From assembly GCA_019428905.1 (NCBI GenBank), contig JAHYJN010000008.1, positions 1-64,000 on the forward strand: a DNA stretch of 64,000 nt, given 5' to 3'. Below the pieces are notes generated by a model. It did not search any database and was not told where the DNA came from. It saw nothing but the letters and a program-made list of their open reading frames with translations. The stretch is from Candidatus Brevefilum sp. GTDB lineage: Bacteria; Chloroflexota; Anaerolineae; Anaerolineales; Anaerolineaceae. Position numbers and translations under genes: made by a program. Of this stretch, positions 45,926-48,618 are shown in pieces. Positions within the stretch are counted from its first letter, which is position 1, and the number at the start of each line of letters is the position of its first letter.

Positions 45926-46012
45926 GGAGAGGTAGCATAGTCCGGCCTAATGCGCGCGCCTGGAGAGCGCGTGTACCGCGAGGTACCGTGGGTTCGAATC
46001 CCACCCTCTCCG
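45926..46012 (+). tRNA. tRNA-Ser (GGA)
   Basis: 87 bases with the long variable arm of tRNA-Ser. Acceptor ggagagg/cctctcc, anticodon loop ctggaga with GGA, T-arm gtggg-ttcgaat-cccac. TATAAT lies at 45895-45900. CCA is not encoded. Confidence 0.95.
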
Positions 46013-46018
46013 CTCGAG

Positions 46019-46049
46019 AAAAACCACCTAATTTCTATAGGTGGTTTTT
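46019..46049 (+). terminator. Terminator of tRNA-Ser
   Basis: aaaaaccaccta (46019-46030) pairs with taggtggttttt (46038-46049), immediately after the tRNA. Confidence 0.9.
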
Positions 46050-46072
46050 GTTTTAAGACGACTGCTGTAAGG

Positions 46073-46215
46073 AATAATGGGTTCGAATCCACACTCCCTG
46101 CGGGAGCGCTTCGCAGCCATATTTGCTCAAGAGAAACCACTCTTTTTTCATAGGGTGGTTTATTTGTTTAAGGTGGGTACCGCAAGATATTTCAGGTTCA
46201 AACACCCAAAAAGTG
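46073..46215 (+). repeat. Degenerate copies of the tRNA-Ser 3' end and terminator
   Basis: atgggttcgaatccacac (46078-46095 region) repeats the T-arm; gaaaccactcttttttcatagggtggttt (about 46133-46161) repeats the terminator in a weakened form; then ggttcaaacaccc (46195-46207) repeats the T-arm again. A further copy lies beyond the ABC genes at 48511-48598. Confidence 0.75.
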
Positions 46216-46600
46216 AGATTACCCAACCTTTCCACTACGACAAGAAACCACGCGGAATTTTGGGTAGTTCATATGTTCATGGCGTTCTACGCTTGCGATG
46301 CAAGGGAATTAAGGTTCCTTAGAATTGTTCGAGATTAACCATGATTTCTTTTCGATCGATTAATTTTTAGGACAGAAAATAAACCGATAAGTTATAATTC
46401 TACAAGTTAGTCTTACATACCATTCTTGATAAGATACCCATCAATTAGAATAATGGGGTATCTTCGTTGGTAAATGTGGCGTAAAGGGTAAGATTTAGTT
46501 TGTAGATTTACATTGTAAATAGTGATTTCTTTTATGCTAAAAATAGTATCCTACCAGTGATAATAAAGGTTTTGGTTGTGAAAAGAGCGTTCTACTGATC
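46216..46600. other. AT-rich leader before the ABC genes
   Basis: About 385 bases, AT-rich, with no gene. A TATAAT at 46392-46397 and a hairpin (aagataccc 46431-46439 with gggtatctt 46456-46464) may form a promoter and leader for the ABC operon. A third decayed terminator-like piece (aagaaaccacgcgg) lies near 46240. Confidence 0.4.
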
Positions 46601-46676
46601 ATTGCTGGAGGCTTACAATTCCTCCTTGCCGATTCCTGTTTTGAAAAATTTGTCTAGAAAAGGAGCATTCTGCCTG

Positions 46677-47588
46677 ATGGATATGTTGGTTATTGAGGTT
46701 AACGATCTTGTTAAAACATATAACAATCTTATTGCTTTGGATAAGATCAATTTTACTGTCAGACAAGGAGAAATATTTGGTTTATTGGGTCCTAACGGTG
46801 CGGGAAAAACAAGTGCCCTGGAATGCTTGGAAGGGTTGCGCGAACCAGATGGCGGATCACTGTTGGTGGCCGGCATTAACCCCACCAGTGATTTCCGTAA
46901 ACTTAGAAACCTGATCGGTGTGCAGCTTCAATCTGCAGGGCTGCCAGAAAGTATCACCCCAGATGAAGCGATGCGGTTCTTTTGTGCTTACCATGGTGTT
47001 GAACCTCGTTTTGACCTTCTCGATCGGTTTGGCCTGGCAGAAAAGCGACACGCCCAGTTCTTTGAGCTCTCCACAGGGCAGCAACGCCGTTTGACCCTGG
47101 CTTTGGCTTTGGCACACGACCCGCAGATCATATTCATGGATGAACCCACTGCAGGTTTGGATGTTGCGACCCGCATTGAGCTGCATGACATGATGCGCGA
47201 ACTGAAAGAGGCGGGGCGAACGGTTATCCTGGCAACCCATGATATGGCTGAAGCCGAGCAGATGGCAGATCGAGTCGCCATCTTGTTACATGGCAGGATC
47301 GTCAAAATTGGTACACCTATGGAAATCACAGCTACCGGTGCCGGGTTGACTAAAATTTCTGTGCGGACCCAAGCCAACAGCTTATCCAGCATCCACCTTC
47401 CAGGGGTGAATCGGCAATTATTCAAGGATGACTATTTTATTTTCTTTAGTTCCAATATCGGCTTGACGCTTTCTGCGATCATTTCCCATCTTGATGCCAG
47501 CCAAGACCAGCTTGTCGACCTGCGCGTTCAACGTCCATCTCTTGAAGATCGTTTTCTTGAGATGACTGGAAAGGGAGTTTTATCATGA
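46677..47588 (+). CDS. ABC transporter ATP-binding protein
   Basis: 303 residues of the ABC-2 exporter type (ABCA/DrrA-like). Walker A GPNGAGKT near residue 40, signature LSTGQQRRL near residue 135 and Walker B IIFMDEPTAGLD near residue 160 are complete. The C-terminal 80 residues are the accessory domain of this group. AGGAG is 11 bases before ATG 46677; an upstream TTG frame is unsupported. It overlaps the permease by four bases. The context suggests it arrived on a mobile unit. Confidence 0.92.
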   Translation: MDMLVIEVNDLVKTYNNLIALDKINFTVRQGEIFGLLGPNGAGKTSALECLEGLREPDGGSLLVAGINPTSDFRKLRNLIGVQLQSAGLPESITPDEAMRFFCAYHGVEPRFDLLDRFGLAEKRHAQFFELSTGQQRRLTLALALAHDPQIIFMDEPTAGLDVATRIELHDMMRELKEAGRTVILATHDMAEAEQMADRVAILLHGRIVKIGTPMEITATGAGLTKISVRTQANSLSSIHLPGVNRQLFKDDYFIFFSSNIGLTLSAIISHLDASQDQLVDLRVQRPSLEDRFLEMTGKGVLS

Positions 47589-48394
47589 ATGCTTTTCTAC
47601 ATCACTTCTCGTTTGAGTTTCGAACCGGCATCCGCAATAAAAACCTCTTGTTGCTAAATTATCTGTTTCCTTTAGGTTTTTATTTGATGATGGGATTTAT
47701 CATGCCGTCTATCAATCCACCCTTTAGGGAAAATATCATCCCGGCATTTGTTGTTTTCGGTGTCCTATCAGCAACTTTGCTTGGAATTCCTGATCCCTTG
47801 GTGACTGCCCGGGAAAATGGGATTTTCCGCAGTTTCAAGATCAATGGCGTGCCTGCAGTCTCAATTTTATTGATCCCTGCTTTGACCACTGTCTTGCACC
47901 TGATGATTCTTACGGCGCTCATAACAGTAACTGCGCCAATATTCTTTGATGCCCCTCTACCGCAAAATTGGCTGAACTATATTATCGTATTCCTGACCTT
48001 AGCAATGGCAAGTTCAGCGATTAGCATTTTAATCGGTGTTGTTTCGCAAAGCTCGCGGGTAACGATCCTGTGGTCGCAGGTGGTATTTGTCCCTTCTATG
48101 ATCCTGGGTGGGTTAATGGTCCCGCTTAGCCTGATGCCAGAGATACCCCAGAAAATCGCCCAGCTCTTGCCCGCAACACATGCGATTAATGCATTCAATG
48201 GGTTGGCCATGGGTAATATCCCTTATTTCTCCCCTTGGGGATCGATCATTATATTAATATCTAGTGGATTGCTTGCCTTTGGCCTGGCTGTTTATCTCTT
48301 TAGTTGGGATAGTCGTAACACCACACGCCGCGGGCATCCAATCATGGCACTCCTGGCAATCCTGCCTTATCTTTTGGGCATTTTGTTGCTTTAA
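47585..48394 (+). CDS. ABC-2 type transporter permease
   Basis: 269 residues with six hydrophobic segments in the ABC-2 arrangement, including the conserved VVFVPSMILGGLMVPLSLMP and LPATHAINAFNGLAMG segments. It overlaps its ATPase by ATGA. Half-transporter plus ATPase would work as a dimer of each. The exported substrate, possibly an antimicrobial or lipid, is unknown. Confidence 0.9.
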   Translation: MNAFLHHFSFEFRTGIRNKNLLLLNYLFPLGFYLMMGFIMPSINPPFRENIIPAFVVFGVLSATLLGIPDPLVTARENGIFRSFKINGVPAVSILLIPALTTVLHLMILTALITVTAPIFFDAPLPQNWLNYIIVFLTLAMASSAISILIGVVSQSSRVTILWSQVVFVPSMILGGLMVPLSLMPEIPQKIAQLLPATHAINAFNGLAMGNIPYFSPWGSIIILISSGLLAFGLAVYLFSWDSRNTTRRGHPIMALLAILPYLLGILLL

Positions 48395-48510
48395 ACCCAA
48401 TCCCTGATTCGGTGTTCAGTTGACAATCACCACACATCGTGCTGGTTTTGTGCTTGTTTGATGCTACATGATCAGCATGCAGCGACGACCGAATTTCTCC
48501 GGTTTGCGTA

Positions 48511-48598
48511 GAAACCGCTCTTATTCTGTCAGGGTGGTTTTTTGATTGAGGCTTGTGTTGGAAAGTATTGTATGTTCAAACACCCACAGGGTGAGGTT
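48511..48598 (+). repeat. Distal copy of the tRNA-Ser-derived repeat
   Basis: agaaaccgctcttattctg, agggtggttttttg and atgttcaaacacccacaggg align with 46133-46215, sharing the exact blocks agaaacc, agggtggttt and gttcaaacaccca in the same order and orientation over about 90 bases. It closes a 2.3-kb unit carrying the ABC genes. Confidence 0.75.
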
Positions 48599-48618
48599 TC
48601 ACACCGTTAACATTATTT

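Follow-up and report, generated by a model that had tools for sequence, protein, structure and literature searches.

A decaying, RtT-like array of tRNA tails behind tRNA-Ser(GGA) in Candidatus Brevefilum, probably opened by an accessory exporter

We analyzed a stretch of 64,000 nucleotides from Candidatus Brevefilum sp. (Chloroflexota; contig JAHYJN010000008.1 of assembly GCA_019428905.1), hereafter the window, in which the gene for tRNA-Ser(GGA) is followed by degenerate copies of its own 3' tail. Repeats of this kind extend over the genus and stand behind several tRNA genes, they decay outward at the tRNA-Ser locus, and the genes at or inside the array differ between genomes. The locus is probably a decaying tandem array of tRNA tails of the type of the RtT repeats of Escherichia coli, opened by a two-gene accessory exporter of the ATP-binding cassette (ABC) kind and acting as a tolerant landing zone. 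The arrays, and not the ABC pair, are the interesting part of the locus. In two of the three genomes of the genus that we surveyed, about one-sixth of the tRNA genes have an RtT-like plan behind them; the genus belongs to a phylum other than that of E. coli, and single cases in two further genera, with none in a third, make this a recurrent and comparable phenomenon. Such arrays raise the questions of why tRNA tails duplicate, why hairpins split their loops, and whether the products are functional RNAs, and they would provide a place where incoming accessory genes are tolerated with no integrase close by.

Tail copies and accessory genes in the window

The parent gene is intact (45926-46013; found by ARAGORN, 57 bits with the Rfam tRNA model) and is followed at 46019-46049 by its intrinsic terminator, an inverted repeat with a perfect 12-bp stem and then T-rich DNA. 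These two features, the array copies with their stems, and the AT-rich leader and genes of the ABC unit all lie on the forward strand. The T-arm 13-mer TGGGTTCGAATCC is present again, exact, 89 nt downstream. Array copy 1 (46063-46164) comprises a T-arm, a hairpin-like insert (46091-46117; CTCCCTGCGGGAGCGCTTCGCAGC, found by pattern search, is 46094-46117), an acceptor remnant and a terminator, with a terminator-like stem of 10 pairs at 46134-46161. Copy 2 (46171-46268) comprises a remnant of the variable arm and T-arm, a CACCC-type insert and a degenerate terminator. Degenerate copies of T-arm plus terminator had been proposed here in an earlier, sequence-only reading, and a profile of 14 units, all from other genomes, confirms both, with E values of 2.2e-16 for copy 1 and 7.5e-8 for copy 2; shuffling of the window in 2-base blocks, done 10 times as a control, gave a best match of E 0.046.

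A distal copy lies beyond the ABC genes at 48497-48602, with an alignable core at 48510-48598. The sequence-only reading had described this copy, with three ordered blocks shared with the middle one, and had called for alignment of 46.0-46.3 kb with 48.5-48.6 kb. The alignment proved significant: 46121-46280 aligned directly to 48401-48680 with a score of 55, against maxima of 30 in 1000 dinucleotide shuffles and 23 among 1886 other segments of the window. The blocks agaaacc, agggtggttt and gttcaaacaccca stand in the same order in both stretches. When the whole 3.04-Mb genome was searched (149 contigs; G000 in our labels, with the window on contig C44), the distal copy matched 46132-46220 at 72% identity over 89 nt (E 8.1e-5). 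With the other-genome profile alone it was not significant across the 64-kb window (E 0.5 and 1.5), reaching E 0.047 when the search was limited to the 12 kb from the tRNA onward, so that its identification depends on its likeness to copies 1 and 2. It begins with a terminator-like stem and continues with a T-arm-like stretch, and thus represents parts of two adjoining units and not one unit. A further terminator-like stem, of 12 pairs, lies 3' of it at 48619-48649.

The unit between copy 2 and the distal copy has the composition described earlier, an ATPase and a permease behind an AT-rich region. The leader (46273-46676) has 34.7% G+C, against 50.6% for the window, and contains a promoter-like site (46369-46398) identified by consensus match alone. 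The genes encode a predicted ABC-2 exporter ATPase (46677-47588; PF00005, 6.7e-25) and permease (47585-48394; PF01061, 2.2e-16). The pair shares with DrrAB-type exporters the two-gene layout of ATPase and ABC-2 permease; it differs in falling below the DrrA and DrrB cut-offs (216.8 bits for the ATPase with the nearest NCBIfam model, DrrA or TIGR01188, against a cut-off of 312.45) and in being patchy among the genomes searched. On the reverse strand, at 48682-49533, follows a DUF2202 gene (PF09968, 1.4e-57) with a lipoprotein signal read by eye.

As an exporter the ABC pair is ordinary; in distribution it is patchy and accessory. Our comparison set comprised 61 genomes, 16 of them of the window's genus. 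The permease was found in 2 of these 16 (E <=1e-10), and in the second genome it lies on a different contig from the tRNA-Ser locus; as several genus genomes are only 66 to 81% complete, such absences are not firm. At E <1e-80 the permease occurs in 6 of the 61 genomes, with identities of 67% within the genus, 69% in another genus of the family and 73% in another family. Five homologous ABC pairs, each from another genome, are flanked by different open reading frames (ORFs); the stretches around four of them (12 to 15 kb) are free of tRNA genes, and the fifth (6.8 kb, in genome G003) has a tRNA-Asn. The earlier view of a foreign-looking two-gene unit is upheld by these data, and we think it probable, as part of the overall reading, that the pair landed inside the array. 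Carriage of the pair on plasmids was unsupported, as 2 of 72,556 plasmid records matched, both below 36% identity.

The tRNA-Ser array across the genus

To compare the locus among relatives we used 13 loci of the genus, each scored with a profile that left the tested genome out, and three loci of other genera; no tRNA-Ser(GGA) locus was retrieved for genus genomes G002, G004 and G008. At least one extra copy follows tRNA-Ser in 11 of the 13 genus loci, with three extra copies each in G010 and G005 and two in G009. The profiles found no copies at the loci of G011 and G001, nor at any of the three from other genera. By blastn, none of 17 other-genus tRNA-Ser(GGA) loci had a match under E 0.03 beyond the parent, and inspection of the loci of G022, G017 and G026 likewise revealed no copies.

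The copies share derived features that their tRNA genes lack. The motif TTTCAGG replaces the 5' T-stem in units of G010, G009 and G003 and in copy 2 of the window, and a hairpin-like insert is found in units of the window, G005, G007, G012 and G015. At up to three mismatches, the window insert occurs in 4 of the 16 genomes of the genus, and in these at no place other than the tRNA-Ser(GGA) locus. Units in the tandem parts are spaced by approximately 95 to 130 bp, and all 11 copy-bearing loci of the genus are free of genes between tRNA-Ser and copy 1.

Decay runs outward from the tRNA. In a comparison of 16 scored units with their own parents, which left out copy 2 and the distal copy of the window since the cutting rule did not yield them, unit-to-parent similarity dropped outward in all four loci with two or more scored units: 0.98, 0.84 and 0.82 in G010; 1.00 and 0.70 in G009; 0.90, 0.88 and 0.69 in G005; and 0.78 and 0.75 in G007. 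Thirteen of the 16 units resemble their own parent more than they do the other parents on average, and only 7 are at least as near to it as to every other parent. Being genus-wide, with shared derived features and an outward fall in similarity, the array reads as a single one, shared by these genomes and apparently growing from the tRNA side, and not as a set of independent integrations.

A search of relatives had also been suggested, and it shows that the same place behind tRNA-Ser holds different gene content. The DUF2202 gene directly follows the array in G010 and G009 and the lone tRNA in G001, with no ABC genes. In G011, G012 and G013 other genes lie in between, assigned to complex I by ORF likeness (three G011 proteins through Pfam). 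G007 has the DUF2202 gene inside its array, flanked by copy 1 and a distal copy that is strong (E 2.1e-16). The tRNA-Ser array of G003 (L058:5205-6906) encloses an AbiEi/AbiEii toxin-antitoxin pair, likewise flanked by copy 1 and a distal copy, here a weak one (E 0.0024).

Arrays behind other tRNA genes and their likeness to RtT

Tail copies are not peculiar to tRNA-Ser. We compared the 100-nt tail plus trailer of each tRNA gene with the 800 nt downstream (blastn, E <=0.001, other tRNAs masked), a survey in which deliberately wrong downstream pairings gave 4 hits in 750. In the window's genome, 6 of 38 tRNA genes have tail copies (Lys-ttt, Lys-ctt, Met, Glu-ttc, Glu-ctc and Pro-cgg, with one copy each for both Lys genes and Pro-cgg), and tRNA-Ser is a seventh, by profile. 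In G010 the count is 2 of 46 (Ser and Glu-ctc), with a Glu-ttc array as well at a looser setting. Ten of 45 genes scored in G013, of which we accepted eight (Val, Lys-ctt, Met, Ala-ggc, Glu-ttc twice, Glu-ctc and Ser); Lys-ttt was dropped as a low-complexity trailer match, and Ala-cgc because its copies belong to the neighboring Ala-ggc array. None of the 46 tRNA genes of G031, from another genus of the family, has tail copies. Behind Glu, Met, Lys, Pro, Ala and Val tRNA genes the arrays have no genes between their copies.

At tRNA-Glu, copies (E <=0.01) were found in 9 of 12 testable genus loci and in 1 of 17 loci of other genera, in a sample that leans toward the genus since the loci were chosen as best matches to the Glu locus of the window's genome; the genus locus of G009, with only 1 nt downstream, was left out. 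The other-genus case is G028, with copies behind tRNA-Glu(CTC). We also observed, in G026 of another genus (L328:930-1180, contig C19), a tRNA-Ser(CGA) with a single nearly perfect tail copy split by CCCCTGCGGGGGTGCTTCGCGA, which resembles the insert of copy 1 in the window. Contamination is listed as 9% for the G026 assembly and 6% for that of G028. The idea that the arrays are confined to the window's genus is wrong in light of these two cases: tail arrays are frequent in the genus, yet not confined to it.

The anatomy of the units was read by eye. A unit consists of the 3' part of the parent tRNA, starting from the anticodon arm, variable arm or T-arm, plus the trailer and often a terminator; the Ala-ggc units of G013 take in almost the whole parent gene. 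Inserts lie in or beside the T-loop (Ser, Met, Lys and Glu-ctc), in the anticodon arm (Glu, Pro and one Val) or in the D-loop (Ala), and units without an insert exist (the Ser units of G010, G009 and G003). Almost none of the copies retains the 5' half, and in many a short hairpin-like insert interrupts a loop or arm, so they cannot act as tRNAs.

Individual arrays show how varied this plan can be. The tRNA-Met of the window's genome (L119:1829-2190, contig C4) has three tail copies, with a terminator T-run directly abutting the next T-arm, and its inserts contain a stretch that resembles one in the Ser array (GGACGCTTCGCAGC against GGAGCGCTTCGCAGC). This array came to light through a weak match of a covariance model of the Ser units; the model has only 5 pairs, its matches outside tRNA-Ser(GGA) loci are weaker, and those inspected at three places (L119, L121 and L122) are other tRNA genes or tail copies. 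In G013 (L229, contig C5), tRNA-Ala(GGC) has three nearly full-length units, their D-loop interrupted by a hairpin-bearing insert of 41 nt, and two of them are identical to the parent over the 100-nt tail plus trailer. In G010 (L194), a long repeat starting TGTCATTGCGA flanks a tail copy on both sides, approximately 10 to 420 nt behind tRNA-Glu(CTC); we take it to resemble a widespread bacterial intergenic repeat.

In architecture these arrays are RtT-like. At the tyrT/tyrV locus of E. coli, home of RtT (rttR, RF00391), tail copies follow tRNA-Tyr and the T-loop is split by a palindromic insert of approximately 70 nt. The arrays of the genus share the tandem copies of tail and trailer behind the parent tRNA, and the palindromic split of T-loop or T-stem recurs, by eye, in Ser copy 1 and in Lys, Glu-ctc and Met units, but not in all units. 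They differ in often having intrinsic terminators, in standing behind several tRNA genes of one genome and in being openable by cargo genes. By its model, they also lie outside the Rfam family: none of 14 genus loci matches it, against 4 hits at the E. coli control locus, and positions 45800-48800 of the window give no RtT match at E <=1. On the 14 loci no Rfam family except tRNA reaches threshold, and what matches the Ser locus below threshold reflects pieces of tRNA or chance. One report describes rtT units that vary in number between Salmonella strains as a 175-bp variable-number tandem repeat (PMC2658671), and another places RtT repeats, known from tyrT, in many other E. coli tRNA operons and in Pasteurellaceae as well (PMC4986893). 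In the open literature, subscription journals lying outside the search, we found no description of such arrays in Chloroflexota.

Explanations for the arrays

We favor an origin in which the 3' part of the tRNA, with its trailer and terminator, was duplicated in tandem behind the gene, with slippage or unequal exchange as the probable motor. At the Ser locus, new copies would arise beside the tRNA, leaving the outer, older ones most decayed. Since duplicate tails are dispensable, they could take up inserts and whole genes, and the region would become a landing zone. In the window's genome the two-gene ABC exporter would then have opened the array between copy 2 and the distal copy. These comparisons support the part of the sequence-only reading in which the tRNA tail was duplicated in tandem and the copies then decayed.

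Several observations weigh against this account. Outside tRNA-Ser the arrays show no outward decay; in-order blastn identities to the parent, over stretches of unequal length, are 92, 85, 84 and 91% for Glu-ttc and 93 and 95% for Met in G000, 93, 92, 100, 100, 87, 83 and 76% for Glu-ttc in G012, and 100, 100 and 91% for Ala in G013. This missing gradient has lowered our confidence, and we hold the account as probable and not as firm. The genomes are mostly drafts, the Glu array of G012 even containing Ns, so copy numbers may be wrong. Plain tandem duplication also leaves unexplained the inserts, which have preferred sites and of which only 2 of 22 are parent-like (p<0.05); by the same count, the proposal that inserts are shrunken 5' halves of the parent tRNA is unsupported. 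A broken integrase gene lies approximately 2.5 kb downstream of one tRNA-Glu array of G013. Finally, covariation in the hairpin of the Glu anticodon arm is a hint that structure is selected and that the units do not simply decay. In this hairpin double-sided changes keep pairing in 2 of 5 pairs (8 cells), 90.2% of cells are paired, and the covariation score is 0.305 against a shuffled mean of 0.123, values that no shuffle out of 500 equals on cells and score, with all slid versions lower on the score; the set comprises 13 hand-chosen, related sequences and is thus suggestive.

The genus might carry a large family of tRNA-linked structured RNAs, tandem hairpin-bearing mimics of the tRNA 3' half that are selected and act on tRNA processing or stress signaling. 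We regard this as unlikely; were it true, the enterobacterial RtT would be one case of a widespread class found also in Chloroflexota. A related explanation, also unlikely in our view, holds that the units are genes for RtT-like structured small RNAs released from tRNA precursors, covariation and terminators being preserved because these RNAs act, for example, in the stringent response or in tRNA processing. The covariation of the Glu hairpin would fit such a role, as would inserts that occupy matching sites in other genera (G028 and G026). Other measures of the same Glu hairpin are ordinary, however: 147 of 500 shuffles were as high on pairs with double-sided change, as was one slid version, also with 2, and 270 of 500 were as high on further pair types. 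Whole units fold no better than their shuffles in the 23 units of the array family (lowest z, -1.95), the sole lower value being that of an E. coli unit (-2.85), and re-pairing of the acceptor strand is at chance level. With none of 24 units (the 23 and one from E. coli) at p<0.05, we rejected the notion that the insert rebuilds an acceptor-T minihelix. The lack of copies in G011 and G001 and the decay of the copies in the window likewise speak against a small-RNA role.

Accretion of integrative elements appears rather improbable. Under this explanation, integrases acting on the tRNA tail repeatedly inserted small elements, each leaving a displaced tail and terminator, with the ABC, AbiE and DUF2202 genes as leftover cargo. 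Cargo does vary by genome, and it is bracketed by copies in the window, in G003 (where the distal copy is weak) and in G007; the genus also has integrase genes behind tRNA-Gly (in G000 and G013), a fragment behind tRNA-Leu, and the broken gene near the G013 Glu array. Like genomic islands and other integrative elements at tRNA 3' ends, the locus has the tail repeated on both sides of accessory genes and a variable gene content at one tRNA. It differs from them in having decayed tandem copies, no integrase at the locus, and cargo outside the first copies, and other arrays have no cargo. The expected position of a tRNA-targeting element is the space from the intact tRNA to copy 1, so the absence of genes from this place in all 11 loci speaks against integration, as do the derived features shared across species and the close tandem spacing. 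In the window, two copies stand between the intact tRNA and the ABC genes, and no like element was found at this tRNA in relatives (the permease being in 2 of 16 genomes, several of them incomplete). Repeated integration at the tRNA 3' end, the other origin that had been suggested from sequence, is thus mostly unsupported by the genus-wide array, its common derived features and the gene-free space before copy 1.

An integrase search (PF00589) covered G000, G010 and G013. A look for a recombinase elsewhere in the genome had been proposed; G000 has three matches (E <=0.001), all on contigs other than C44. No integrase was found near the Ser locus in the three genomes, and their integrase genes lie away from tail-copy loci, barring the one broken gene in G013, which leaves without support the proposal that a tRNA-directed integrase, acting in trans, moved the cassette here.

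Least probable, and in our judgment quite improbable, is that small palindromic mobile elements enter tRNA loops and, in place of the duplications, drive the arrays, the intact tRNA surviving only through its duplicated tail. In its favor, many unit families, and tyrT of E. coli as well, have short hairpin-like inserts at the T-loop, D-loop or anticodon arm; for 6 of 22 inserts the fold is better than in shuffles (p<0.05); and the Ser insert of the genus resembles that of the G026 tRNA-Ser(CGA) copy. Against it, a search of the 16 genus genomes at up to three mismatches found the Ser insert nowhere else, and some Ser units lack one.

The broken integrase gene of G013 lies between two tRNA-Glu(TTC) genes that stand 8 kb apart, each with an array (L233 and L239; C3:1519747-1527855). 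An integrase gene is located approximately 430 bp behind tRNA-Gly(TCC) in G000 (C88:6139-7126), another approximately 430 bp behind tRNA-Gly(CCC) in G013 (C3:904980-905967), and an integrase fragment approximately 480 bp behind tRNA-Leu(TAA) in G013 (C2:178463-178741). Those behind tRNA-Gly and tRNA-Leu are likely ordinary tRNA-targeting elements or their remains.

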